30,408 bases of DNA from positions 1 through 30,408 of the IMG/VR virus record IMGVR_UViG_3300046001_008485. One strand, written 5' to 3'. The first letter of the stretch is position 1. Each line of letters opens with the position of its first letter. The translations under genes were made by a program, and so were the position numbers. The stretch is from a virus. The notes under the pieces are model-generated. The model was given only the letters and a program-made list of their open reading frames with translations, was not told the origin of the DNA and did not search any database. Shown piece by piece: positions 3,241-30,048 of the stretch.

Positions 3241-4632
3241 TTATGATCGATCAAAATCTAAATTATCCTCCATATTATAATTTATTCCGGAAATTTTTGG
3301 ATTTCTCTTAAATTTCTGACCACTATCTTCTCTTCGGATTGCATCATTAAGTATAGTCAAAAACATTACCCAGTCACCATCTTTAAAATCTTTCTTGCCA
3401 TTATTGTCAGTAATATTTTTAATTTCCCATTTCAACCAATAGTCAACTAAATCGTATCTAGTCCCAGTCAAAATATCTGTATCACTATCTATTTGCACAA
3501 TATCAGTATAGAAATCCATATAGATATTTTTTCCTGTATCTGTTTCATTATTTAAGCCCCAGATATATAAATATCCATCCCAGATAGAAAAATAATTAGG
3601 AGTTTCTTCGCGCTCATTTATCCAAACATCTAATTCGGCTGTCATATCAGCAGTTAGTGCAGTTACTGTTAGAGTATTAGTAGTTTTATCATTCGCTGAA
3701 TAATCGATCTCGTATAAAGTATTGTTTTTATAAATATGTATAGTTCCTGTGTCATCAAGATCAGCTGTCGACGTTAAAATCAACGCTGTCGCAGAAGTTA
3801 GCGCAGTAGTAGCTACAGTTGTATGAATCACATCTTTCATCATTTCATTAAATTCTCTTTTGTCTTTATATATAAGAGTATCTCCACTTCCAACTCTTAT
3901 AGATAAACAAGATTTATTTGAATTTTTGTCATAATAAGTAGTAGGTAATTCAAATCTATATTCACCTCTATTCATTTGATCTATAATATAATCAAATTCT
4001 TGATAATTACTCCAGGTTTTTAATTTACCTCTTGTAAAACTAAGGCAAGCATTAATTCTTCGAATTAATATATCATATGTCAAAATATCGCTGAGATTTT
4101 TACCTAATTCTGCTAGTGCTCCATAAATAAGATAGCCTACTGTATTTATTGCATAACCTTCGAAAGGAATTGCATCAGAATAATTAGAAAATGTATTTGT
4201 AATAGTTTCTTTATAACGAGTAAAGTAATAACCTGAGGTATAAGTACTATCATCATATCTAATTTCAGGATTTTCAGGATTAATAGTTTGAGTGGACATT
4301 ACTGTCTTAGTTCCAGTTTCAGTAGTTGCATGAGATATTTCAATTGAATCATAAGGAATAAGATATACGGGAGTATCTTTTGGATGTGGCTTAGTTGTAT
4401 TTGAAGCTAAAGTTACTGTAAAGCTAGTAGGTGCTGTAGATCCGTGTGTTTTAATAATTTCAGATCCTTCTTCGCCATATTCTCCTATAAGAAGAATTTT
4501 ATTTATAGCAAAATCAGTTATACTATAAACAGTAAAAGAGTTTACTCCTGCAGCAATAGAAGCTTTTAGTGATGATTTATTAGTATCTTGCCATAGGTCA
4601 GATACATCTACTAGTAATGGTCTAATCGGCAT
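3241..4632 (-). CDS. Putative neck/tail protein, 463 aa
   Basis: A 463-residue protein without a recognised domain. Residues 20-110 are beta-rich (SFTVYSITDFAINKILLIG), as is 270-340 (ALTSATALILTSTADL). The C-terminal part is more helical, with VDYWLKWEIKNI and ILNDAIRRED. It lies immediately upstream of the propeller-like tail protein, and both have the A/T-rich start signal, so a role in the head-tail junction or tail is likely. No signal peptide or membrane segment is seen. Confidence 0.5.
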   Translation of the reverse strand: MPIRPLLVDVSDLWQDTNKSSLKASIAAGVNSFTVYSITDFAINKILLIGEYGEEGSEIIKTHGSTAPTSFTVTLASNTTKPHPKDTPVYLIPYDSIEISHATTETGTKTVMSTQTINPENPEIRYDDSTYTSGYYFTRYKETITNTFSNYSDAIPFEGYAINTVGYLIYGALAELGKNLSDILTYDILIRRINACLSFTRGKLKTWSNYQEFDYIIDQMNRGEYRFELPTTYYDKNSNKSCLSIRVGSGDTLIYKDKREFNEMMKDVIHTTVATTALTSATALILTSTADLDDTGTIHIYKNNTLYEIDYSANDKTTNTLTVTALTADMTAELDVWINEREETPNYFSIWDGYLYIWGLNNETDTGKNIYMDFYTDIVQIDSDTDILTGTRYDLVDYWLKWEIKNITDNNGKKDFKDGDWVMFLTILNDAIRREDSGQKFKRNPKISGINYNMEDNLDFDRS

Positions 4633-5125: not shown

Positions 5126-5274
5126 AACTTTTTTTTGTTGTAATTTTCAAAACTTTCACTTCTTTGTTGAATAAGGCTTTTCCTCGATTCAACTAATAAT
5201 AGTTTTGCAAACACAGTCTTTGAAATTAAAAATAAACTAATTAAAATAATTACTACTACTAAAAATAAGTGCAA
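5122..5274 (-). CDS. Small membrane peptide with non-ATG start, about 50 aa
   Basis: An open frame with no ATG reads, from TTG at 5274, a long hydrophobic segment (HLFLVVVIILISLFLI, residues 2-17) followed by a basic, polar tail (SRKSLIQQRSESFENYN). The pattern is that of a single-pass membrane protein with a soluble helical tail, like a small inner-membrane spanin or holin. The TGA stop overlaps the ATG of the C39-like peptidase, the usual sign of coupled genes, which is the main argument that it is real. The exact start is uncertain; ATA codons lie further upstream in frame. Confidence 0.45.
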   Translation of the reverse strand: MHLFLVVVIILISLFLISKTVFAKLLLVESRKSLIQQRSESFENYNKKKL

Positions 5275-9891: not shown

Positions 9892-12800
9892 TTAGGTCAT
9901 CCCCACATATTTGACCACTCCTTGTTCTCGGATATAAAGCCGATTATTTGTTGTGTCATATCCCATTTGTCCGTCTTTTGTAAGTTCGGTTGTAGTCAAT
10001 GCTCCTGAAAAAAATGCCATATTTCCATCAACACGGTAACCCAGATTTTTATCAGCGAAATCCATTGCCAATGCTTTGGAAAATCTCACAATATCGTCAT
10101 AACTCGGATACCACACATAAAACAAAGTCGAACCTTCATAAAAAGCCACTTCTTTGAACCACGTGTTGCCGTCTGAGGTTGAATGTTTTAGTTTCAGTGT
10201 AATTGCCGTAGCAGAGGCGGAGATTGTTTTTGAAACTCCAATATTCTGCCAAGCGTCAGCAGTTGTATTCGTGGCGGACGCTGTTTCTATTCCGTCATCA
10301 ATCGAAACTTGCATAGTTGAAGCAACTGTTTGATATGCTTTTGCCACAATAGAAACTTCTTTTCCTCGCAGTCTTTCCACTAAGTCTTCGGGTAAAGTTT
10401 GAGTAATTAAAGCGTCAGTCGTTGCTCGTCTGATTTTTTGTCCTCGATACATTGTTGCGGCGAAAAGTTTTTTGACTTGGGAATCGGTTAGAGCGACTGA
10501 AAGAACGCCAGCGTTTTGGATAAGGCCGTCAAAAAACCAGTTAGACGAAAAAACACCAAGACGGCCTATTGAAAAGTCTCCATTTGTATCAGAATGCGAA
10601 CCACTTGCTGCAACTTCTTTTTTTATTCCATTTATCCAAATTTTATTTTTTTGTAATACAGAATCGTAAACTCCACATATAAAATACCACTTCCCCGTTT
10701 CAATTTTTACATCCGAAGTAACTGCTGGATTTGTAGTAAGTGCGTCTAGGTTGAATCCAATCGTATTAGCACTACCTACATATAACCCAGCCCAAGGAGT
10801 TGCGTTGCTAGGAGATTTTCCCATAATTGCCATTTCAGCAGCAGGGAGAGATTCTGCTTTTATAAACGCAAACCACGTTTGACTTCCAGCAATTTCTAAA
10901 TTAGCACAAGAAGCGTCTGCAATCGTGAAATACTCCGAGTTGTCTCTTTCAAAATCTCTCGCCTTACCCATCAATCCGTCATCAGAAGAAAGAACAGTAT
11001 TATTATCAGTCAAATGATACCCATTAGAAGAAAGGTCAGTTGCATTTCCACTGGCTTCATTCAGATTCCAAAGTCCTTCAATATCTCCGTCTGAAATTCC
11101 TAAAAGAGCAATCAGCTCTGCTTTGGTCATTGAGGGAAATCCGCCTTGCACTGGATTGGCAGAAGAATTTGTCCAGTCGTCAGGAGTTGAACCATAACCG
11201 TTGGTAGAATTATTGATGAAGTTTCCATTTTTAAGAAGGTTGTTCATTCCACCGCCACCTGCGGCTACTCCACTAAACCCTGACGTACCTGAAAATCCAC
11301 TAATGCCAAGACCACTAGTTCCTGATGTACCTGAATACCCTGAAGTTCCACTTGTGCCTGAAAATCCTGAAGTTGATGTTAAACCTGAAAAGCCACTTAT
11401 GCCAGAATAACCTGAAGTTCCAGATGTACCTGAGAATCCAGAAGTTCCGCTAAATCCAGATGTTCCACTTGTCCCACTATAGCCACTTGTTCCAGATGTC
11501 CCTGTCCCAGAAGTTCCAGAAAAACCTGATATACCTGAGGATCCATTAATACCTGATGTACCAGATGTTCCAGAATATCCTGATGTTCCACTCGTTCCTG
11601 AAAATCCGCTTGTTCCAGAATATCCTGATGTTCCACTCGTTCCTGAAAATCCGCTTGTTCCAGAATATCCTGATGTTCCACTCGTTCCTGAAAATCCGCT
11701 TGTTCCAGAATATCCTGAATATCCTGATGTTCCACTATAACCAGAAACTCCTTGTTCTGCAAAGACTGACCAAAAAGCTCCTTCGACTGGCGTATTATTT
11801 AAATTAGTATTTTGTAGAGAGATCCAAGTTATTTCTCCATAAGAAGCTAAATCATTTATACTATATGTTGTTCCACTATCCCAAACTCCTTTTGCTGTAA
11901 CTCCTGTTCCTGCCGCACCAGATGTTCCAGAATAACCACTAGTTCCAGAAGTTCCTGAAACTCCTTGAATGAAAAATGATGTTACAATATGTGAAGCCAT
12001 TTCAGCTCCTTGATATATAAAGGAGATATTTCTATTAACTCCAGCAGTTGTAGCCACCGGGCGAACAATAATTCTATCGGTAGTCAAAAGAGTAATATCA
12101 CTAACTACGGTGTATTTTTGTATATAATATTTAGCTGCGACTGAACTACCTACTACTGATGTTATTTCACTTTTTGATACTGCAGTTGAAAATAATAAAG
12201 TAGAAGCTCCAGTAGGTGCTGTTTTAAATACATCAAACCAGATATAGGATTTACTAGATACACTACTTACATAAGCCCAAAAATTAAATTCCCACACTCC
12301 AGCTGGGAGTGTTGTTGACACTGGAAATAAATCTGAAGTAGCATAAGAATCTAAAGGGACTCCTTGTGTTGCTTCAAGTCCCGTAGATGTAACTGTTTTT
12401 GTTTCTACTACCTGAGTTCCTGTTACCGGAACGCGAGTGAGGGATTCTCTTTGCACAGAAATAGTGATAGCAGTTCCAGCAGATTCATTTATAACAGCAG
12501 ATGAATAAGTAAAAGTAAGAGTTCCAGCTGCAACTGAAAGAATATCATATTTTGCTCCATTATTAGCACCACCAGAAACTTTAATAGTCATTCCAGCAAT
12601 AAATCCTGTTGTGATAAAATTAACGTCACCAACTGTCATTGTATCAGGAGTAGAAGCTGTAACAAATGCTACTTGCGATGAAGTAAATGTTGGTGTATTA
12701 AAAGAATCTAAATTATCAAAATATAGAAGTTGTCCAGATGTAAGTCCCTGTATTCCTGATGTTCCACTGAAACCGCTTGTTCCTGAAGTTCCGGAAAAAC

Positions 12801-13857
12801 CACTTGTTCCGGATGTCCCACTATAACCCGAAACTCCAGAATACCCACTTGAACCTACGAATGAACCACCACTATAACCAGAAGTTCCTGAAAATCCTGA
12901 TGTTCCAGAAAAACCAGAAGTTCCAATACCGGATGTTCCAGAATAACCTGATGTTCCACTAAAGCCACTATATCCTGAAGCTGTTAGTAAATTCCAATAA
13001 GCTCCATCTGTGACTGCATGATTTGTTCCTCCTTGAATTGAAACATAGCCTGCTCCATTATATGAAACGCAATCATTTATAAAATATTCTGTTCCACTAT
13101 CCCAAATTCCTTTCCAAGGATATTGAGTTCCTATTGTTCCACTAGTTCCTGAATAACCTGATGATCCAGAAATTCCAGAATAACCACTGAGACCACTAGC
13201 ACCAGAAAAACCACTAACTCCTGAGAAGCCTGATGTTCCACTTGTGCCACTAGATCCTACGAATGAGCCACCGCTATACCCCGAGGTTCCAGAAAAACCA
13301 GACGCTCCAGATGTTCCTGATAGTCCAGCACCTGATGTTCCTGAAGATCCACTATTTCCTGAGAAGCCTGATGTTCCACTAATACCTGAATAACCTGAAG
13401 TTCCAGAAAAGCCACTTATTCCACTAAAACCAGAAGTCCCTGAAAAACCTGATGTTCCTATGCCAGAGAACCCTGAAGTTCCACTAGCTCCTGATACTCC
13501 TACTCCTGATGTACCTGAGAACCCACTAGTTCCACTGAAGCCACTTATTCCTGAAAATCCTGATGTTCCAGAATAACCAGAAGATCCAACAAAAGAACCG
13601 CCAGAATAACCTGAAACTCCGCTAAAGCCTGATGTCCCGGAAAAGCCAGATGTTCCAGAAAAGCCAGATATTCCTGAAAAACCAGAAGTACCAGAATAAC
13701 CAGAAGATCCAACAAAAGATTCTCCGGAGTAACCAGAGACCCCACTAAATCCAGATGCTCCTGAAAATCCACTAGCTCCTGATATGCCCGAGTATCCACT
13801 AATTCCTTGAGGTCCTGTCGGAGTAGCCTTAATTTTAATCAAAGGTAATATTCTCAT
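9892..13857 (-). CDS. Giant collagen-like fibre with sugar-binding and LamG-like modules, 1321 aa
   Basis: The start is collagen-like (TPTGPQGISGYSG). Long Gly-x-Ser triplet tracts (GFSGTSGYSG) fill about residues 15-240 and 700-865, with shorter ones between. Two modules, near 245-292 and 645-697, carry WDSG-T-Y-x3-D at the start and a terminal W, resembling chitin-binding CBM5/12 modules. A non-repetitive beta-rich part lies at about 375-630. Residues 870-900 (NLLKNGNFINNSTNG) look like CBM4/9. Residues 915-1135 look LamG/concanavalin-like, with AGLYVGSANTIGFNLD and KWYFICGVYD. Triplets lack Pro, so any triple helix would depend on Thr/Ser, perhaps glycosylated by the adjacent transferases. 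Three exact 45-bp tandem copies lie inside. Confidence 0.8.
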   Translation of the reverse strand: MRILPLIKIKATPTGPQGISGYSGISGASGFSGASGFSGVSGYSGESFVGSSGYSGTSGFSGISGFSGTSGFSGTSGFSGVSGYSGGSFVGSSGYSGTSGFSGISGFSGTSGFSGTSGVGVSGASGTSGFSGIGTSGFSGTSGFSGISGFSGTSGYSGISGTSGFSGNSGSSGTSGAGLSGTSGASGFSGTSGYSGGSFVGSSGTSGTSGFSGVSGFSGASGLSGYSGISGSSGYSGTSGTIGTQYPWKGIWDSGTEYFINDCVSYNGAGYVSIQGGTNHAVTDGAYWNLLTASGYSGFSGTSGYSGTSGIGTSGFSGTSGFSGTSGYSGGSFVGSSGYSGVSGYSGTSGTSGFSGTSGTSGFSGTSGIQGLTSGQLLYFDNLDSFNTPTFTSSQVAFVTASTPDTMTVGDVNFITTGFIAGMTIKVSGGANNGAKYDILSVAAGTLTFTYSSAVINESAGTAITISVQRESLTRVPVTGTQVVETKTVTSTGLEATQGVPLDSYATSDLFPVSTTLPAGVWEFNFWAYVSSVSSKSYIWFDVFKTAPTGASTLLFSTAVSKSEITSVVGSSVAAKYYIQKYTVVSDITLLTTDRIIVRPVATTAGVNRNISFIYQGAEMASHIVTSFFIQGVSGTSGTSGYSGTSGAAGTGVTAKGVWDSGTTYSINDLASYGEITWISLQNTNLNNTPVEGAFWSVFAEQGVSGYSGTSGYSGYSGTSGFSGTSGTSGYSGTSGFSGTSGTSGYSGTSGFSGTSGTSGYSGTSGTSGINGSSGISGFSGTSGTGTSGTSGYSGTSGTSGFSGTSGFSGTSGTSGYSGISGFSGLTSTSGFSGTSGTSGYSGTSGTSGLGISGFSGTSGFSGVAAGGGGMNNLLKNGNFINNSTNGYGSTPDDWTNSSANPVQGGFPSMTKAELIALLGISDGDIEGLWNLNEASGNATDLSSNGYHLTDNNTVLSSDDGLMGKARDFERDNSEYFTIADASCANLEIAGSQTWFAFIKAESLPAAEMAIMGKSPSNATPWAGLYVGSANTIGFNLDALTTNPAVTSDVKIETGKWYFICGVYDSVLQKNKIWINGIKKEVAASGSHSDTNGDFSIGRLGVFSSNWFFDGLIQNAGVLSVALTDSQVKKLFAATMYRGQKIRRATTDALITQTLPEDLVERLRGKEVSIVAKAYQTVASTMQVSIDDGIETASATNTTADAWQNIGVSKTISASATAITLKLKHSTSDGNTWFKEVAFYEGSTLFYVWYPSYDDIVRFSKALAMDFADKNLGYRVDGNMAFFSGALTTTELTKDGQMGYDTTNNRLYIREQGVVKYVGMT
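11581..11715. repeat. Three exact 45-bp tandem repeats in the fibre gene
   Basis: Units 11581-11625, 11626-11670 and 11671-11715 are identical, each beginning TGATGTTCCACTCG on the + strand. They encode 15 residues of Gly-x-Ser repeat on the leftward strand. Neighbouring repeats are diverged, so this block is a recent expansion. Because 45 is a multiple of three, copy-number changes keep the frame. Confidence 0.95.
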
Positions 13858-20586: not shown

Positions 20587-22068
20587 TTATGCCATTATCA
20601 TAGAGTAGCCATCATCACTACTCATTTGAATTAATTTCTTAGTCTGTCTTCGTATTTGAGCTTGTACTGCATGACTCTTAGGAAATGCAAATGTTAGCAT
20701 TAAACTATCAGCAACGTCTGGACTATCAATTCCTTTCTTACGCATATCATCCTTAGACATAATAACCATATTACCTGAACTATCTCTAACTTTATATTTA
20801 ATCTGAGTGAGTTGATACCAATCTAAGTGTTTTTTTAATTTGCCTCCTGCTTTAATCCATTCTCTAACTCTCCAATATGCCTCTGCTCTTAGATTATAGA
20901 AATTAACTTTATCAAGTGGACTACTTGAAACTTTAATGCCTTTAACTGGAATGCGTTGTTCTGTAAATCTATCTGCTACTCCTGAACCTACTCCAATCGC
21001 ATCAATAAATATTTCTGATTCTTCTATTCCTAAACGTCTGCATATCTGAATCGTATTACCAACTGTTGTCATTAAATTATCTTCGTGATCTTTTCTAACT
21101 ATAGCAGCAAAGTTTTCTGATCTACATACAAATGAATTAAAATTCTCTCCTCCCTCAGCTACGTCTAACCCTAGTCGCTTAGTGCCAAACATTGGAATAT
21201 TTTCTTCTACAAATGCCGCTTCTAATTCATCATCTGTAATAAGTGGACTCCAACCATCTCTGTCAACCATATCTGCTGCTGGAAATTTATTCTCAAATAA
21301 TATATCATAATTTGGTTTTGTCCTTGCAATCGATAAATATTCCTCTGTGAGCCTTCCTTCTTTTAAACCAATTACTGAATCAATATTTCTACAAAATATA
21401 GTTTCATCTCGAGTATCCTTTAGAAAATGTCCTCGTGTAAACGGATTACCAATCTTTAAATAAAAATAATCTTCTGCGCTATCCGCTAACATACGAAACA
21501 CTTTACCTTCCATTTCATCATCAATCAAAGCCGCTTCATCTAATATAACATTAGAAGCTCCAAAGCCCATAACAGCTTCGCCTGCTCTAACTTTATTATT
21601 TGAATCAACTCCAATAATAAATACTTCTCCTAGTGTTCCGTCAGCGTGTTTAAAATTGATTCTATCTTTAGTGCGTTTCCTTCTAAGAGATTCGATTGAC
21701 TCCCCTTTATCAATCATCAACTTTGACTTAAAATAATCATTATCAAAGGCGTGTTGTAAAACATAATCCATAATAATTCTTGCCTTCTCAAGTGAAGGTG
21801 CAATGATCGCCCACTTCTCTGGAAAAGTAGAAGCTCTTAATAAAACTGCAAGCGCAACTGTCATTGATTTACCAAAACGAGTATGGGCCATCAGATGCTC
21901 TCGCATATGCTTCCGCTTAAATATATCATTAAAGATCATTGCTTGTGTTGGTGTAAGTTTTAACTCATCTCCTTTTTCATCTTTGTAAAGAACTCTAACT
22001 CTTTGATATGTTTCAAAATCTTCTTCAGAATATTCTAATTGTTTACCTTTTAATTCTACAAATTGCAT
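20587..22068 (-). CDS. terL: Terminase large subunit, 493 aa
   Basis: The packaging ATPase-nuclease. Residues 60-70 (MAHTRFGKSMT) form the Walker A loop, 174-178 (VILDE) Walker B with catalytic Glu, and 206-209 (IGNP) the coupling motif. The C-terminal RNase H-like nuclease shows Asp302 (LGLDVAEGG), Asp356 (IFIDAIGVGSG) and a final acidic site in SPDVADSLMLTFAF. It cuts the concatemer and pumps DNA into the procapsid through the portal. Length is typical (450-550). It starts 4 nt after the small subunit stop. Confidence 0.92.
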   Translation of the reverse strand: MQFVELKGKQLEYSEEDFETYQRVRVLYKDEKGDELKLTPTQAMIFNDIFKRKHMREHLMAHTRFGKSMTVALAVLLRASTFPEKWAIIAPSLEKARIIMDYVLQHAFDNDYFKSKLMIDKGESIESLRRKRTKDRINFKHADGTLGEVFIIGVDSNNKVRAGEAVMGFGASNVILDEAALIDDEMEGKVFRMLADSAEDYFYLKIGNPFTRGHFLKDTRDETIFCRNIDSVIGLKEGRLTEEYLSIARTKPNYDILFENKFPAADMVDRDGWSPLITDDELEAAFVEENIPMFGTKRLGLDVAEGGENFNSFVCRSENFAAIVRKDHEDNLMTTVGNTIQICRRLGIEESEIFIDAIGVGSGVADRFTEQRIPVKGIKVSSSPLDKVNFYNLRAEAYWRVREWIKAGGKLKKHLDWYQLTQIKYKVRDSSGNMVIMSKDDMRKKGIDSPDVADSLMLTFAFPKSHAVQAQIRRQTKKLIQMSSDDGYSMIMA

Positions 22069-22549: not shown

Positions 22550-22738
22550 ATTATTATTTATATTATAATTCTTTTTCTTAAATAAAGCACGCACCCGTTG
22601 AGTTATACCCAAATTAGGAGCCTCTTCGCTGTTGCTTTATTTTCTATTCTATAATATATTCTTTAATATAAAAAGAAAAAAAAGAATTACTCCCCTTGTA
22701 ATTATCCCTAGAGTGCATAACTTCTGCATAACTCCGGG
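22550..22738. other. Leader of the late operon and upstream operator region
   Basis: Gene-free A/T-rich sequence between terS and promoter P2. It holds an inverted repeat, AATTAC (22685-22690) with GTAATT (22698-22703), and two direct copies of TGCATAACT (22714-22722 and 22725-22733). On the leftward strand there is a TATTAT/TATAGA-type -10 near 22650 but no convincing -35, so late transcription may need an activator. Confidence 0.5.
22714..22733 (+). repeat. Tandem TGCATAACT operator-like repeat
   Basis: Two perfect copies of TGCATAACT are spaced 11 bp apart, about one helical turn, and end 5 bp before the -35 of P2. The CATAACT core recurs at 30037-30043, also five bases before the -35 of P5. 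This looks like a binding site for an activator or repressor. Confidence 0.6.
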
Positions 22739-22767
22739 TTGATTTATTTTTAAATGTAATATATAAT
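22739..22767 (+). promoter_or_regulatory. Promoter P2
   Basis: TTGATT (22739-22744) and TATAAT (22762-22767) are 17 bases apart, preceded by CATAACTCCGGG. Predicted start is at about 22774, the first base of the structured RNA/31-codon frame. The -35 is weaker than in P1 and P3-P5. Confidence 0.7.
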
Positions 22768-22773
22768 GAAATT

Positions 22774-22869
22774 ATGAAAAATCACAATAACAATTCAATA
22801 CAAAGTGATGTTCTATTTTTGAATTGCCAATGGGATTTTTCATCTAATCAACTACTTGTCGTAAGATAA
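22774..22869 (+). CDS. Possible leaderless 31-aa peptide inside the structured RNA
   Basis: An ATG lies seven bases after the -10 of P2 and opens 31 codons (MKNHNNNSIQSDVLFL) ending in the terminator stem. The sequence has no recognisable domain. The start codon is paired in helix 1. The gene at 24558 has the same ATG-to-promoter spacing, which lends some support to leaderless translation, but an RNA function is as likely. Confidence 0.25.
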   Translation: MKNHNNNSIQSDVLFLNCQWDFSSNQLLVVR

Positions 22870-22879
22870 GTAGTTTTTT
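22850..22879 (+). terminator. Rho-independent terminator of the P2 RNA
   Basis: AACTACTT (22850-22857) pairs with AAGTAGTT (22868-22875) around a 10-nt loop, and T residues run to 22879. This gives an RNA of about 106 nt from P2. Confidence 0.8.
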
Positions 22880-22902
22880 AGTTCCTTAAAAAGTGCTAAA
22901 AT

Positions 22903-22978
22903 TAGAGATTTATGTTATTAGAGTAGGGTTGGCTTTTTTTATTTTTAGCTATAATCCAACTAATAACATAGATCTTTG
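22903..22978 (+). ncRNA. Long hairpin RNA element
   Basis: Bases 22903-22921 pair with 22960-22978 over 19 positions: an 11-bp perfect core (TATGTTATTAG with CTAATAACATA) extended by eight pairs including three G-U wobbles, which work only in rightward RNA. After a 7-nt bulge, TTGG (22929-22932) pairs with CCAA (22956-22959). The loop holds TATAAT at 22950-22955. It may be an RNA element, the 5' part of the next structure, or an inverted-repeat protein site. Confidence 0.45.
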
Positions 22979-22999
22979 CTTTTAGCCTAGAGAGAAGAC

Positions 23000-23264
23000 T
23001 GACCCCCGTTATCTAGGTGTTTTGCTTTCTGTCGCTGTAGAGTTAGGGATTTTTAAACTTTTTTGCCTCAAAATTTCTCAAAAAAGTAGCTCCTATATAA
23101 TAATAAATAGCTAGAATAATATATAAAAAGGATCCTCTTTGATCGGGCTCGTCATAACTAGACCACCAATCATAGACTGCCTAATAATAACCCTTTCCTA
23201 CAGCGAACGAAACCAAAACATAGTGGGGGTTATATTATACGTATCATATGGTATGGTGTTTTTT
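23000..23264 (+). ncRNA. Candidate rod-shaped RNA, about 230-265 nt
   Basis: Three nested long-range helices: TGACCCCC (23000-23007) with GGGGGTTA (23225-23232); 23017-23029 with 23209-23221 with one mismatch; and TCGCTGTAG (23032-23040) with CTACAGCGA (23198-23206). AGGG (23045-23048) with CCCT (23191-23194) continues the rod. A 9-bp hairpin (23057-23065 with 23079-23087) lies inside. G-U pairs favour rightward RNA. A weak stem (23240-23245 with 23250-23255) and T-run (23259-23264) could end it. No open frame covers the region, and no known RNA class is recognised. Confidence 0.5.
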
Positions 23265-23272
23265 ATCGAATT

Positions 23273-23452
23273 ATGAATCTAATAACGAAAAAGCAAAAAA
23301 GCAAAAAAGCAATTTTTCACTATAAAAATTATCAATTTGGCTTGCATCCTAATACGGTTGAGCTTTTGAAAAAAGAGAAGCAAAAGTCTAATTTAACGTG
23401 GAATCGTTTTTTCTATAAAATAATCAATCATTATATTAATACTAATCGCTAA
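23273..23452 (+). CDS. Ribbon-helix-helix-like small regulator, 59 aa
   Basis: A 59-residue basic protein. After a Lys-rich N-terminus (MNLITKKQKSKKA), a strand (IFHYKNYQFGLHP) leads into NTVELLKKEKQKSNLTWNRFFYKIINHYI, which has the helix-turn-helix rhythm of Arc/MetJ ribbon-helix-helix repressors. It is the first gene of the rightward early region and sits just beyond the structured RNA region, so it could regulate P2/P3 or the late operon. The Lys-Gln repeat (AAAAAGCAAAAAAGC) at its start is slippage-prone. Only a pattern-level match. Confidence 0.5.
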   Translation: MNLITKKQKSKKAIFHYKNYQFGLHPNTVELLKKEKQKSNLTWNRFFYKIINHYINTNR

Positions 23453-23470
23453 TTAATAACATTCATACAT

Positions 23471-23749
23471 ATGTCACCAATCAAGGATTTAACTAAGGAC
23501 AACTCAGAATCTAGCTTCGACAAGCTGATTAAGAGTAAGGTAATCAAGGTAATTAAAGATAAAGATCCTTGGAAGAAATTACCCAATCATAGTAGTAGAA
23601 GGCATAATGAGGCTTTTGACAAGAGATTAGTGAGAATTACGGCGAAAAAACAGCAAAAATCGATGAGAAGATACATCAAAAAAGCCTTAAAAAAAGAGGA
23701 GAAAGTAATCGAATTTATACCAGACTTTAAAATTAGCCCCTTGAAATAG
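23471..23749 (+). CDS. Small basic protein, 92 aa
   Basis: A 92-residue, strongly basic protein (begins MSPIKDLTKDNSESSFD) with clusters such as KSKVIKVIKDKDPWKKL and KKQQKSMRRYIKKALKKEEK. No domain is recognised; nucleic-acid binding or interaction with host RNA polymerase would suit an early phage protein. It is followed by a terminator that overlaps its last codons, so it forms a short transcript unit with the 23273 gene. Confidence 0.55.
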   Translation: MSPIKDLTKDNSESSFDKLIKSKVIKVIKDKDPWKKLPNHSSRRHNEAFDKRLVRITAKKQQKSMRRYIKKALKKEEKVIEFIPDFKISPLK

Positions 23750-23761
23750 GGGTCTTTTTTT
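23737..23761 (+). terminator. Terminator overlapping a stop codon
   Basis: CCCCT (23737-23741) pairs with AGGGG (23748-23752) around TGAAAT, followed by TC and seven Ts. The stop codon TAG (23747-23749) is in the hairpin. Confidence 0.85.
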
Positions 23762-24522: not shown

Positions 24523-24551
24523 TTGACATTTTATTAAAACTAATATACAAT
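24523..24551 (+). promoter_or_regulatory. Promoter P4, start codon at +1
   Basis: TTGACA (24523-24528), 17 bases, TACAAT (24546-24551). The ATG at 24558 is where transcription should start, so the mRNA would be leaderless. Confidence 0.75.
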
Positions 24552-24557
24552 AAAAAT

Positions 24558-24752
24558 ATGGGTAAAATAGAAATAAGTAGAGAGCAGTTTGAAGCTTATG
24601 AGGATTTAGTAAGAATAAAAAAAGAAGTAATGTTAGGTAGGATTTATTCAATTATAGATAAACTTGCAGAAGATTATCTAGTAGATATTGATAAGGATGA
24701 AATATTTGAGATTATGCGAAATTACGATAAGTACCAGAAGAAGTTCAATTGA
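24558..24752 (+). CDS. Small acidic helical protein, probably leaderless mRNA, 64 aa
   Basis: A 64-residue protein (begins MGKIEISREQFEAYEDLV) with long amphipathic helices (MLGRIYSIIDKLAEDYLV and KDEIFEIMRNYDKYQKKF). No domain recognised; the helical pattern would suit a dimeric regulator. Promoter P4 places the transcription start on the A of its ATG, so it has no room for any ribosome-binding leader. It ends in TGA, evidence that UGA is a stop here. Confidence 0.55.
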   Translation: MGKIEISREQFEAYEDLVRIKKEVMLGRIYSIIDKLAEDYLVDIDKDEIFEIMRNYDKYQKKFN

Positions 24753-25142: not shown

Positions 25143-25220
25143 ATGAAAAAGACAGTTAAAAAAGTTGCTCCTAAAAAAGTAGCTCCAAAAAAGGTAGTAG
25201 CGAAAGGAAAGAAAAAATAG
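25143..25220 (+). CDS. Lys-rich micropeptide, 25 aa, histone-tail-like
   Basis: ATG 25143 opens 25 codons made almost wholly of Lys, Val, Ala and Pro, with the repeat KKVAPKK twice. Twelve lysines make it extremely basic, resembling the C-terminal tails of histone H1-like bacterial proteins. The start follows TTAATTATTAATTTTC, the usual local signal. It could condense DNA or bind RNA. It is too short to exclude chance, but the codon-varied repeats (AAA/AAG, GCT/GCG) suggest selection on protein. Confidence 0.5.
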   Translation: MKKTVKKVAPKKVAPKKVVAKGKKK

Positions 25221-25230
25221 TTTGCTTCTT

Positions 25231-25263
25231 TAGATCGAGTGCGCTGTCTCTTCACTTGATCTA
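25231..25263 (+). promoter_or_regulatory. 11-bp hairpin upstream of the nuclease gene
   Basis: TAGATCGAGTG (25231-25241) pairs with CACTTGATCTA (25253-25263), 11 pairs with one G-U, around an 11-nt loop. No T-tract follows, so it is not a standard terminator. It may be an RNA stabiliser, processing site or operator. Confidence 0.55.
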
Positions 25264-25293
25264 AGATAACTAAATTATTAATGAAAAAATCCT

Positions 25294-26247
25294 ATGAAAA
25301 AAGAAATTATTGAGATTGATAAATCTCGAGGCGTCTATCAGATTACCACAACAGATGAAAGATGGTATACAGAAACTGAAACTAATACTGAAACTGGTTT
25401 ACCGTTTTTCAAATTTATCCCCTCGGTAACTTGGATCACCTCCTATGTTTATAAAGGGGTTGAGTTTTATAAGTGGCTAGCATCAAAGGGTTGGGATGAA
25501 GCAGAGGCTATTAAATCCGAAGCGGGTGATAAAGGATCTAAGATTCATAATGCAGTTGATCAATTAATTAAAGGTGGTACTATTAAAATGGAAGATAAGT
25601 TTAATAATATTAATACAGATAATCCAGAAGATTTAAAGCCAGAAGAATATAGTGCGGTCAATTCTTTTGTTAGATGGTATAATGAAGTTAAGCCAGAATT
25701 TATTCTAAATGAAACGACTGTAATTTCAAAGGAATTTAATTTTGCAGGCACAGTTGATTGTGTTGCTAAAATTGGAGATCAGATTTGGATTATTGACTGG
25801 AAATCTTCTCAGTATATTTGGCCTAGTATGGAAGCTCAAATTTCAGCGTATAAACAAGCCTTTAAAGAAATGGGTCGTAATACTACGGGTATTAAATTAG
25901 CAGTGTTACAGCTCGGATATAAGAAGAATAAGCGCGGTTACAAGTTTACAGAGATTGAAGATAAATTCGAAGATCTATTTTTACCGGCACGTAAGTTTTG
26001 GGAGTCAGCTACTAAAAATCAATCACCAAAACAATATGAATTACCATTAGAGCTGAGCTTGAATTTACCTAAACTAGAAATGCCTAAAGATATAGCTAAG
26101 ATGGATACAGTTGTAATTGATTCTGAAAATCCTCCAACACCTATAACTACAATTCTTCCTGAAATAGAAATAGGTGACAAAAAAGTAGCCACAGTCGATG
26201 AAGTTATAGTTAAGCCAAAGAAGAAATATAAATCTAAGAAAAAATAA
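25294..26247 (+). CDS. PD-(D/E)XK nuclease, RecB/Cas4-like, 317 aa
   Basis: A phage exonuclease of the RecB-like superfamily. Motifs: GSKIH (81-85, His85), FAGTVDCVAKIG (Asp155), IWIIDWKSS (Asp168, Lys170) and MEAQISAYKQAF (Gln182, Tyr186). The last 100 residues are Pro/Ile-rich and then Lys-rich (KPKKKYKSKKK), a disordered basic tail. It probably resects DNA ends for recombination or replication, fitting the SSB-like gene further on. Cys residues of a Cas4-type iron-sulfur cluster are absent. An in-frame-shifted ATG at 25279 opens only ten codons and is ignored. Confidence 0.75.
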   Translation: MKKEIIEIDKSRGVYQITTTDERWYTETETNTETGLPFFKFIPSVTWITSYVYKGVEFYKWLASKGWDEAEAIKSEAGDKGSKIHNAVDQLIKGGTIKMEDKFNNINTDNPEDLKPEEYSAVNSFVRWYNEVKPEFILNETTVISKEFNFAGTVDCVAKIGDQIWIIDWKSSQYIWPSMEAQISAYKQAFKEMGRNTTGIKLAVLQLGYKKNKRGYKFTEIEDKFEDLFLPARKFWESATKNQSPKQYELPLELSLNLPKLEMPKDIAKMDTVVIDSENPPTPITTILPEIEIGDKKVATVDEVIVKPKKKYKSKKK

Positions 26248-27408: not shown

Positions 27409-27618
27409 ATGGATAATAAAATAGAAGAAGAAGTAGGAGAAGTAGTAAAAATAGCTTCATATAAAATCTGTTTACGAAGTGGAAAAACGATAATTATTTC
27501 TCAAAAGGATTATCTTAGAATATCAAATGATCTAAAAACAGGTATAGTCCATTGGATTCAAGTTGGATCTGAAGTCGGACCATTAATTAATGCAGCCAAT
27601 ATCGAAGTAATTGAATAA
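27409..27618 (+). CDS. Small unknown protein, 69 aa
   Basis: A 69-residue protein (MDNKIEEEVGEVVKIASYK) with a beta pattern (KTIIISQKDYLRISN, VHWIQVGSEVGPLIN), likely one small barrel. It ends 4 nt before queD, so it belongs to the preQ0 operon or to the DNA-replication genes upstream. No function recognised. Confidence 0.5.
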   Translation: MDNKIEEEVGEVVKIASYKICLRSGKTIIISQKDYLRISNDLKTGIVHWIQVGSEVGPLINAANIEVIE

Positions 27619-27622
27619 TTAT

Positions 27623-27973
27623 ATGTACACATTAAAACTAACACATAGCTTCTCAGCAGCACATCAACTAACTCACGCATATTCAAAAGAGTGTAATGAT
27701 TTCAAGCACGGACATAATTGGAAAGTAGTCGTAAAAATTCGATCCTACAAATTAGTAAATGGAATGGTAGTTGATTTTAAAAAAGTGAAAGAAGTAATTA
27801 ATAAATTAGATCATAAAGACTTAAATATTATTTTAGATTTTGAGCCTACTGCGGAAAATCTAGCTAAATATCTTTATGATGAAATAATGAAATTAGGATT
27901 AGAAGATAATTTGTGGATGATTGAACTTACTATTTGGGAGGCAGATAATGCTTCGATAAGATATGAAATCTAA
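27623..27973 (+). CDS. queD: QueD, 6-carboxytetrahydropterin synthase, 116 aa
   Basis: Converts dihydroneopterin triphosphate to 6-carboxytetrahydropterin, the second step to preQ0. Zinc ligands are His14 (FSAAH) and His29, His31 (HGHNW). Catalytic Cys24 lies in ECNDFKHGH, with four residues before HGH rather than the usual three. VVDF, the catalytic Asp-His (KLDHKDLN, His64), PTAEN and the substrate-binding IWEAD (Glu107) complete the family. The ATG at 27623 is chosen over a TTG at 27611. It overlaps the next gene by 11 nt. Confidence 0.88.
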   Translation: MYTLKLTHSFSAAHQLTHAYSKECNDFKHGHNWKVVVKIRSYKLVNGMVVDFKKVKEVINKLDHKDLNIILDFEPTAENLAKYLYDEIMKLGLEDNLWMIELTIWEADNASIRYEI

Positions 27974-28133
27974 TAAATATTTCAGTACTCATACTGAAAT
28001 TAGTTTTATTAAAAGTATAGTAAGAATTATTGGATTTATTGCAGTAGCTTGTGGAAATATAATCAGCGGCTCGATAATATTAATAGTCGCTGAAATAATT
28101 GGCATAATTGAAGAATTATATGAAAGTAAATGA
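27963..28133 (+). CDS. Small membrane protein between queD and queE, 56 aa
   Basis: A 56-residue protein with hydrophobic segment (FIAVACGNIISGSIILIVAE, about 25-44) and a basic, polar N-terminus (MKSNKYFSTHTEISF). It overlaps queD by 11 nt and queE by 14 nt, so it sits tightly inside the preQ0 operon. Insertion of a membrane peptide there is unusual; it may be unrelated to the pathway. A preQ0-type transporter would be much longer. Confidence 0.5.
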   Translation: MKSNKYFSTHTEISFIKSIVRIIGFIAVACGNIISGSIILIVAEIIGIIEELYESK

Positions 28134-28770
28134 AGTGTTTTTTGGAATTCAAGGAGAAGGAAAATCAGCAGGCGAGCTTAAATTATTCATTAGATTTAGT
28201 GGTTGTAATTTAAAATGTAGTTTCTGTGATACAAAATATCATGTCGAGAGCCATGAACTAACCGAGAAGGATAAGGCTTTAATGAAACATCATAGTCATT
28301 GGTGTATTACAGGAGGTGAGCCTCAATTATACCAAAAAGAAATAAACGAATTGATTAAAAAATACGAACCACAATCAATAGAGATTGAGACTAATGGCAC
28401 AATCCCTTCTAATGAATTAGATCCTTACGCACATAACTACGATTGTTTAATTAGCTATAATGTTTCACCAAAAGAACTCCGATTTCAACCAGCTGGGAAA
28501 GATTCAACTCCTTATCTACTAAAAACTCTAAATCCTGTATTAGCTATTGTTAAATTTGTCTATTCTGACAAAGAGAGTGAAAAGTTTATTCAAAAAACTA
28601 TAAAAGAATATAGTATTCCAAATGAGATAGTGTGGATTATGGCAGAAGGTAAAACTAAAAAAGAACAAGAAAAAAAAGCAAAAGAAGTTTGGAATTACTG
28701 TACTAAGAAGGGATATAATTTTTCACCTCGTCTTCATGTTATGACTTGGGATATTAAAAAAGGAGTATAA
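28120..28770 (+). CDS. queE: QueE, 7-carboxy-7-deazaguanine synthase, 216 aa
   Basis: A radical SAM enzyme making 7-carboxy-7-deazaguanine, step three to preQ0. FFGIQGEG (7-14) is the QueE opening motif. The cluster cysteines are 29, 33 and 36 in GCNLKCSFC (C-x3-C-x2-C). TGGEP (64-68) binds SAM. The later EIETNGT, NVSPKE and LHVMTW segments match the family. Length 216 is typical. ATG 28120 is preferred to TTG 28108. It is followed by folE after 17 nt. Confidence 0.9.
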   Translation: MKVNEVFFGIQGEGKSAGELKLFIRFSGCNLKCSFCDTKYHVESHELTEKDKALMKHHSHWCITGGEPQLYQKEINELIKKYEPQSIEIETNGTIPSNELDPYAHNYDCLISYNVSPKELRFQPAGKDSTPYLLKTLNPVLAIVKFVYSDKESEKFIQKTIKEYSIPNEIVWIMAEGKTKKEQEKKAKEVWNYCTKKGYNFSPRLHVMTWDIKKGV

Positions 28771-28787
28771 TTATTAAATAAAAATAT

Positions 28788-29333
28788 ATGAAAGAAGCCG
28801 TCAAAAAAATCTTAAAATGTAATGGAGAGAATTGTGATCGCGAAGGTTTAAAAGAAACCCCAGAGCGAGTAGAGAAAGCCAATAAAGAGTTGTTTAATGG
28901 CTACAATATGGATGTTAAGCTAACAGCTTTTAAAGAGCACTGTGATCAGATTATTATGTTGAAGAATATTGAATTCTACTCAACATGCGAGCATCATACA
29001 ATTCCTTTTTATGGTAGAGCGCATATCGCTTATATCCCAAATGGAAAAGTATTAGGGATTTCAAAGTTAGCGAGACTCTTAGATAAGCATGCAAATCGTT
29101 ATCAAATTCAAGAGAGAATGACCGAAGATATTGTGAAAGAGATCGCTGAGGCATTAGGAGATCATTTCGGGGTAGCCATCGTAGTAGAAGGAATCCATCT
29201 TTGTATGAGAGCACGAGGAGTTAAAAAACAAAATTCTGTTATGGTGACCGCTAAGATGACAGGGAAGTTTTTCGAGAATGTCCATACAAGAGCTGAGTTT
29301 TATAGTCTAATTAATACACCTAATTTTAACTAA
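28788..29333 (+). CDS. folE: FolE, GTP cyclohydrolase I, 181 aa
   Basis: First enzyme of the pathway: GTP to dihydroneopterin triphosphate. REGLKETPERV (18-28), STCEHHTIPFYG with zinc ligands Cys67 and His70, GISKLARLLDKHANRYQIQERMT and HLCMRARGV with Cys139 are all present, as in type IA enzymes. Length is normal. It starts after TAATTATTAAATAAAAATAT and is followed one base later by queC. Confidence 0.92.
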   Translation: MKEAVKKILKCNGENCDREGLKETPERVEKANKELFNGYNMDVKLTAFKEHCDQIIMLKNIEFYSTCEHHTIPFYGRAHIAYIPNGKVLGISKLARLLDKHANRYQIQERMTEDIVKEIAEALGDHFGVAIVVEGIHLCMRARGVKKQNSVMVTAKMTGKFFENVHTRAEFYSLINTPNFN

Positions 29334-29334
29334 T

Positions 29335-30030
29335 ATGAAAAAAGTAATCATAATTGTGAGCGGTGGGATGGATTCAGTTACCTTACTTCACGAAGTTGTA
29401 AAAAAACATGGAGCAGAAAATATTTTTGCACTTAGTTTTGCTTATGGCTCTCGTCATATGAAAAAAGAAATTCCTATGGCTCAATTTAATTGTAAAAAAT
29501 TAGGAGTCAGTCACCAAATCGTAGATGTGCGCGGAGTATTTAAAAACTTTAAATCCGCATTATTAAATAAGAGGGATAGTGAGAAAATTCCCGAAGGTCA
29601 CTATGAATCTTCTAATATGAAGAAGACGGTTGTACCTTTTAGGAATGGTATTTTACTTTCAATTGCCGCTGGATTCGCAGAATCAAATAGCGCTAAAATT
29701 CTTTATTATGGCGCGCATGCTGGTGATCACATGATCTATCCCGATTGTAGAAAAGAATTTGTTGACGCGATGTCCAAAGCATTTGAATTAGGTACAATGA
29801 ATAAAGTCGTAGTTAGAGCGCCTTATCGAAAAGACAATAAGATTACAATTCTAAGGAAGGGATTGAAATTAGGAGTAGATTATTCTAAGACTTGGACTTG
29901 TTATTCTCCCTTTGGTAATAAGTCTTGTGGAAAATGTGGAAGTTGTCAGGAGCGGCTGGAAGCGTTTAGATTAAACAAAATTGAGGATCCTTTAGAGTAT
30001 ATTACTAGAGAAGAAATTAAGGGCGTATAA
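29335..30030 (+). CDS. queC: QueC, preQ0 synthase, 231 aa
   Basis: ATP-dependent conversion of 7-carboxy-7-deazaguanine to preQ0. The PP-loop SGGMDS (9-14) binds ATP; zinc is held by Cys189, 198, 201 and 204 (TCYSPF, SCGKCGSC). LSFAYGSRH, VPFRNGILLSIAAGFAE and the later KTWTC region match the family. It is the last gene of the run. The next gene has its own promoter P5. Confidence 0.92.
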   Translation: MKKVIIIVSGGMDSVTLLHEVVKKHGAENIFALSFAYGSRHMKKEIPMAQFNCKKLGVSHQIVDVRGVFKNFKSALLNKRDSEKIPEGHYESSNMKKTVVPFRNGILLSIAAGFAESNSAKILYYGAHAGDHMIYPDCRKEFVDAMSKAFELGTMNKVVVRAPYRKDNKITILRKGLKLGVDYSKTWTCYSPFGNKSCGKCGSCQERLEAFRLNKIEDPLEYITREEIKGV

Positions 30031-30048
30031 CCTCTTCATAACTACCGG

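Follow-up and report, generated by a model that had tools for sequence, protein, structure and literature searches.

A sharply bounded structured block at the transcription divide of a virus genome, possibly part of an early leader RNA

Genome setting

Leftward and rightward genes are separated by a divergent, gene-poor stretch in one IMG/VR virus record from an uncultured phage (IMGVR_UViG_3300046001_008485; 30,408 bases, here termed the window). A preliminary description, made from the letters alone, placed a rod-like RNA fold of about 230 nt in this stretch, at 23000-23264. The locus raises the questions of whether such a fold exceeds chance, how far it extends, which strand would carry it and what role an RNA made from it might have. 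The neighboring genes and signals are as follows.

before the large terminase, leftward: putative small terminase
20587-22068, leftward: large terminase (PHROG terminase match)
23273-23452, plus strand: ORF59, the first candidate gene past the block, starting 9 nt beyond its T6 run
23471-23749, plus strand: ORF92, a second small gene, with its 3' end overlapped by T3
23736-23753: terminator T3
25294-26247, rightward: exonuclease

Every match of the terminase to annotated phage records lies below 60% identity, and the best listed ones reach 23-30%. Further rightward, QueD, QueE, FolE and QueC follow one another at 27611-30030 and together represent the preQ0 pathway, which suggests 7-deazaguanine modification of the DNA. 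A 1321-aa protein with long SGTSGFSG-type repeats is encoded on the minus strand at 9892-13857, adjoining two genes that by eye resemble glycosyltransferases.

Extent of the fold

The fold is stronger than expected by chance, as the preliminary description had claimed. On the plus strand, 23000-23264 has an MFE of -69.5 kcal/mol, against -49.6 +/- 4.4 kcal/mol for shuffled sequences (z -4.5), none of which folds as well (0/200). The proposed extent stands only in part: the plus-strand fold is real, but the significant block is larger, reaching from 22774 to 23264. This interval is the top-scoring 491-nt tile of the window (z -8.2 and -8.0; runner-up -4.9), and its plus-strand flanks are near zero (22600-22770, z -0.7; 23265-23470, z 0.1); the structure therefore begins just past a promoter, P1, and stops at a T6 run. 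The strongest 240-nt tile of the window (22801-23040, plus strand, z -6.2) lies mostly to the left of the originally reported span because it takes in a 27-bp hairpin at 22895-22986. The reported rod thus makes up the right half of a block of about 490 nt with sharp bounds, in which P1 is followed by a hairpin, T1, H2, the rod and T2:

22714-22732, minus strand: tandem 11-bp repeats GTTATGCAGAA/GTTATGCA just upstream of P1, 0 mismatches
22739-22767, plus strand: P1, sigma-70-like promoter TTGATT-17-TATAAT, 10/12 match in the promoter scan
22774-22843, plus strand: 5' hairpin of sRNA1, the predicted short P1 transcript; holds a 31-codon ATG frame
22844-22881, plus strand: T1, predicted intrinsic terminator with an 11-bp stem (22850-22875), U6 and an outer CUAA/UUAG clamp; z -6.1
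22895-22986, plus strand: H2 hairpin, 27-position arms with one U-C mismatch and three G-U pairs
22929-22955, plus strand: P2-like promoter TTGGCT-15-TATAAT within the H2 loop; short spacer, tentative
23000-23232, plus strand: rod, in which helices join two arms, each about 45 nt long, around an interior of about 140 nt
23000-23012/23220-23232: rod helix 1, 13 possible bp, the outer 8-9 firm and the inner 4-5 uncertain
23019-23024/23214-23219: rod helix 2
23026-23029/23209-23212: rod helix 3
23032-23040/23198-23206: rod helix 4
23057-23065/23079-23087, plus strand: internal 9-bp hairpin of the rod, ACUUUUUUG/CAAAAAAGU
23232-23264, plus strand: T2, weak hairpin rich in A/U and G-U, then T6

The block codes for no obvious protein. 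The earlier remark that open frames are absent is correct as far as long ones go, but small ORFs of chance length are present.

Structure of the block

The nested helices and internal 9-bp hairpin of the earlier account are present in the rod, with pair probabilities mostly of 0.9-1.0; lower values are confined to the inner end of helix 1 and two end pairs. Folded alone, the rod has a z of -5.1 on either strand (0/1000 shuffles). Only its two arms exceed chance, and the interior (23050-23190) folds no better than shuffled sequence (z -1.0); the improbable part is therefore the pairing of arms about 160 nt apart.

Upstream of the rod, T1 is predicted to be a good intrinsic terminator, and H2 is strongly structured (z -6.5, 0/1000 shuffles). 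P2 resembles P1, a likeness equalled in 1/500 shuffles; the promoter scan demanded a spacer of 16-18, so P2, with 15, is absent from its list. T2 is a possible terminator, with z -1.9 on the plus strand and 0.5 on the minus strand and a stem probability of about 0.35. The P2-T2 unit was also considered as a tandem duplicate of P1-T1 and rejected: the ends are alike, but the whole units do not align (460/500 shuffles as good). The 31-codon ATG frame (22774-22869, plus strand) starts at the predicted P1 start and ends within T1, and may encode a leaderless peptide or a leader peptide.

Strand of the putative RNA

Folding energy does not choose between the strands, since the minus strand of 23000-23264 folds equally well (z -4.8). 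Imperfect pairs, which appear as G-U on one strand and A-C on the other, are more informative: in T1, H2, the rod and T2 they are G-U on the plus strand in 8/8 cases. Some of the counted helices were picked from the plus-strand fold, so this 8:0 count is support and not proof. Both imperfect pairs of the sRNA1 hairpin (2/2) favour the minus strand, on which that hairpin is also the more stable (-22.4 vs -15.7). The G-U count modestly favours a rightward RNA. The claim that G-U pairs fit the rightward strand only is correct where imperfect pairs of the rod and H2 were counted. The broader proposal, a non-random fold in a gene-free control region that is probably a rightward RNA, is supported.

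Comparison with known RNAs

Rfam was searched with the window at the gathering score and with 22600-23480 at E<=5, yielding a tRNA-Thr elsewhere and otherwise sub-threshold matches of unrelated families only. The block is therefore not assigned to 6S RNA, phage pRNA, GOLLD or ROOL, in agreement with the original account, which recognised no known class. The suggestion of a 6S-like RNA is unsupported: rod-like closing helices are common to both, but even at E<=5 there is no 6S match, and where 6S has one single-stranded bubble at its centre and a stem at its apex, the rod opens into a loop of about 140 nt whose structure does not exceed that of shuffles. A packaging RNA is likewise disfavoured, as no phage pRNA match was found, though terminase genes adjoin. 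GOLLD and ROOL are large, elaborately folded noncoding phage RNAs (PMC12286853); they are widely conserved, their complex folds are supported by covariation, and they often lie near tRNA islands, whereas the rod lacks an Rfam match and has an unstructured interior. 'Something new', the remaining suggestion, survives only in the sense of an orphan, lineage-specific RNA.

Two phage systems resemble the locus in layout. The putL and putR sites of HK022 are structured RNAs soon past a phage early promoter, ahead of early genes and with terminators downstream; each put is about 70 nt, consists of two stem-loops and acts via the zinc-binding domain of the RNA polymerase beta' subunit (PMC9378689). 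The block, with several hairpins across 490 nt, differs from put in size and arrangement, and put may serve as a functional analogue only. At Gifsy-1 IsrK, transcripts from a single phage promoter either terminate early as a short RNA or read through to form an mRNA (PMC4825925); compared by description, the predicted short/long RNA layout of the block resembles this.

Relatives

Using TerL, TerS, MCP and ORF59 as protein anchors, one close relative (L002/G001; terminase 80% identical) and several distant ones were recovered, and the two GTDB scans returned none. In the divergent region of L002, a long hairpin and a terminator accompany a promoter at the matching place. The local alignment score between this segment and P1-hairpin-T1 is equalled in 1/500 shuffles, and the L002 hairpin and terminator together are structured (z -4.0); the terminator keeps the outer CUAA/UUAG clamp on a different stem. 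Tandem 11-bp repeats (GTTATGAAGAGGTTATGAA) also lie upstream of the L002 promoter (5255-5273, minus strand), in the opposite orientation relative to P1 from those in the window, and the consensus in both phages is GTTATGMAGAR. The tandem repeats upstream of P1 are a probable regulator site; a similar copy with 2 mismatches occurs at 30024-30042 of the window.

Past T1, no similarity between L002 and the window was detectable (397/500 shuffles as good), and the L002 DNA is unstructured (z -0.1); the rod therefore appears lineage-specific in the data at hand, and close copies may exist beyond them. No rod homolog was found among phages, plasmids, related records or in an IMG/VR pattern scan, no DNA similar to the block in phages or plasmids, and no second rod copy in the window or the related records searched. 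Five related records gave a promoter-like match, in one only, plus short matches at chance level. The 9-bp rod helix pattern matched five times in IMG/VR, with flanks unlike the rod; the H2-arm pattern matched three times, always in other hairpins. The corresponding divergent region of a further relative (G004; MCP 65%) has no strong fold. L002 itself carries three tRNA-like or long-stem elements with strong closing stems (3866-3988, 4125-4238 and 4250-4335, minus strand), which neither ARAGORN nor Rfam reported.

Possible functions

Judged by sequence and layout, the rod may be part of an untranslated leader or attenuator RNA heading the first early operon, possibly also accumulating free; this reading is tentatively favoured, while falling short of likely, because ORF59 begins 9 nt past the T6 run and has no clear promoter between that run and its start (by sequence and promoter scan), T1 is good and T2 is weak. 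Most P1 transcripts would stop at T1, as short RNAs about 107 nt long. A minority, by readthrough of T1 or from the tentative P2, would cross the rod and H2, whose length would allow processing of the RNase III type. Ending at T2 would leave the rod RNA free, with a length of about 280-300 nt and its ends clamped together; otherwise the transcript would run on into ORF59-ORF92. The rod would thereby limit expression of the first early genes, its free form being a by-product or having a second role. The bounds of the block, from just past P1 to the T6 run with no excess structure in the flanks, its rank above every other 491-nt tile, the retention of P1-hairpin-T1 in L002 and the one-sided G-U count are all consistent with a leader. 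Against it stand the weakness of T2, the 15-nt P2 spacer, the equal folding of the minus strand and the opposite count (0:2) in the sRNA1 hairpin. Neither ORF59 nor ORF92 falls into a recognised family, and a ribbon-helix-helix guess for them is unsupported by the single-sequence models, which are helical and low-confidence. With no rod homolog found, conservation does not stand behind the leader reading.

The main rival, itself rather unlikely, is a free-standing noncoding RNA acting in trans, in which an early rod RNA would hit a host or phage target as decoy, antisense or scaffold and the downstream genes would be incidental. Helix-clamped ends, a P2-like promoter of its own, a T6 end and no notable open frame would suit such an RNA, and orphan RNAs are known in phages, for instance GOLLD and ROOL (PMC12286853); P2 and T2 are both weak, however, and the chance-level interior, the missing Rfam match and the missing homolog argue against it. 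In a more specific and unlikely version, the locus would produce an undescribed early phage RNA: a conserved short RNA (P1-hairpin-T1, with the CUAA/UUAG clamp), then a lineage-specific rod RNA of about 300 nt acting in trans on the host. Third comes a DNA-level element, a replication origin or packaging/initiation site whose palindromes would be extruded or opened single-stranded, leaving the RNA fold as a by-product. Equal folding of both strands, the A/T-rich interior, the adjoining terminase genes and a cumulative GC-skew minimum at 23.0-23.5 kb agree with this; divergent transcription also gives such a minimum, though, and the G-U bias towards one strand and the framing of the block by promoter and terminators make an origin or packaging site improbable.

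The rod arms could also be read as imperfect inverted repeats flanking a structureless interior, as in what remains of a mobile element or of an accidental duplication in inverted orientation whose terminal repeats are imperfect. However, there is no target-site duplication by eye, no second copy turned up in the window or the related records searched, and the block contains not one strong hairpin but three separate ones, so that this origin is very improbable. Least probable is a cis antitermination RNA like HK022 put, in which H2 and/or the rod would bind RNA polymerase and carry it past T2 and later terminators: hairpin RNAs do occur at such places, just past an early promoter with terminators ahead (PMC9378689), but the element here is far larger than put, and no match to it was seen in sequence or structure.

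If the RNA is made, it would be an orphan structured RNA at the transcription divide of a phage for which a search of annotated phage records turned up nothing close. P1-hairpin-T1, kept in the relative despite a rebuilt terminator stem, is the better target for a conserved phage small RNA.

Other features of the rightward genes

No Shine-Dalgarno sequence is visible in front of several of the rightward genes. A TTGACA-17-TACAAT-like promoter at 24524-24558 (plus strand) has its expected start at the ATG of a 64-aa ORF, which is likely leaderless. The leader of the exonuclease gene contains a stable hairpin (25218-25285, plus strand; -16.7 kcal/mol).
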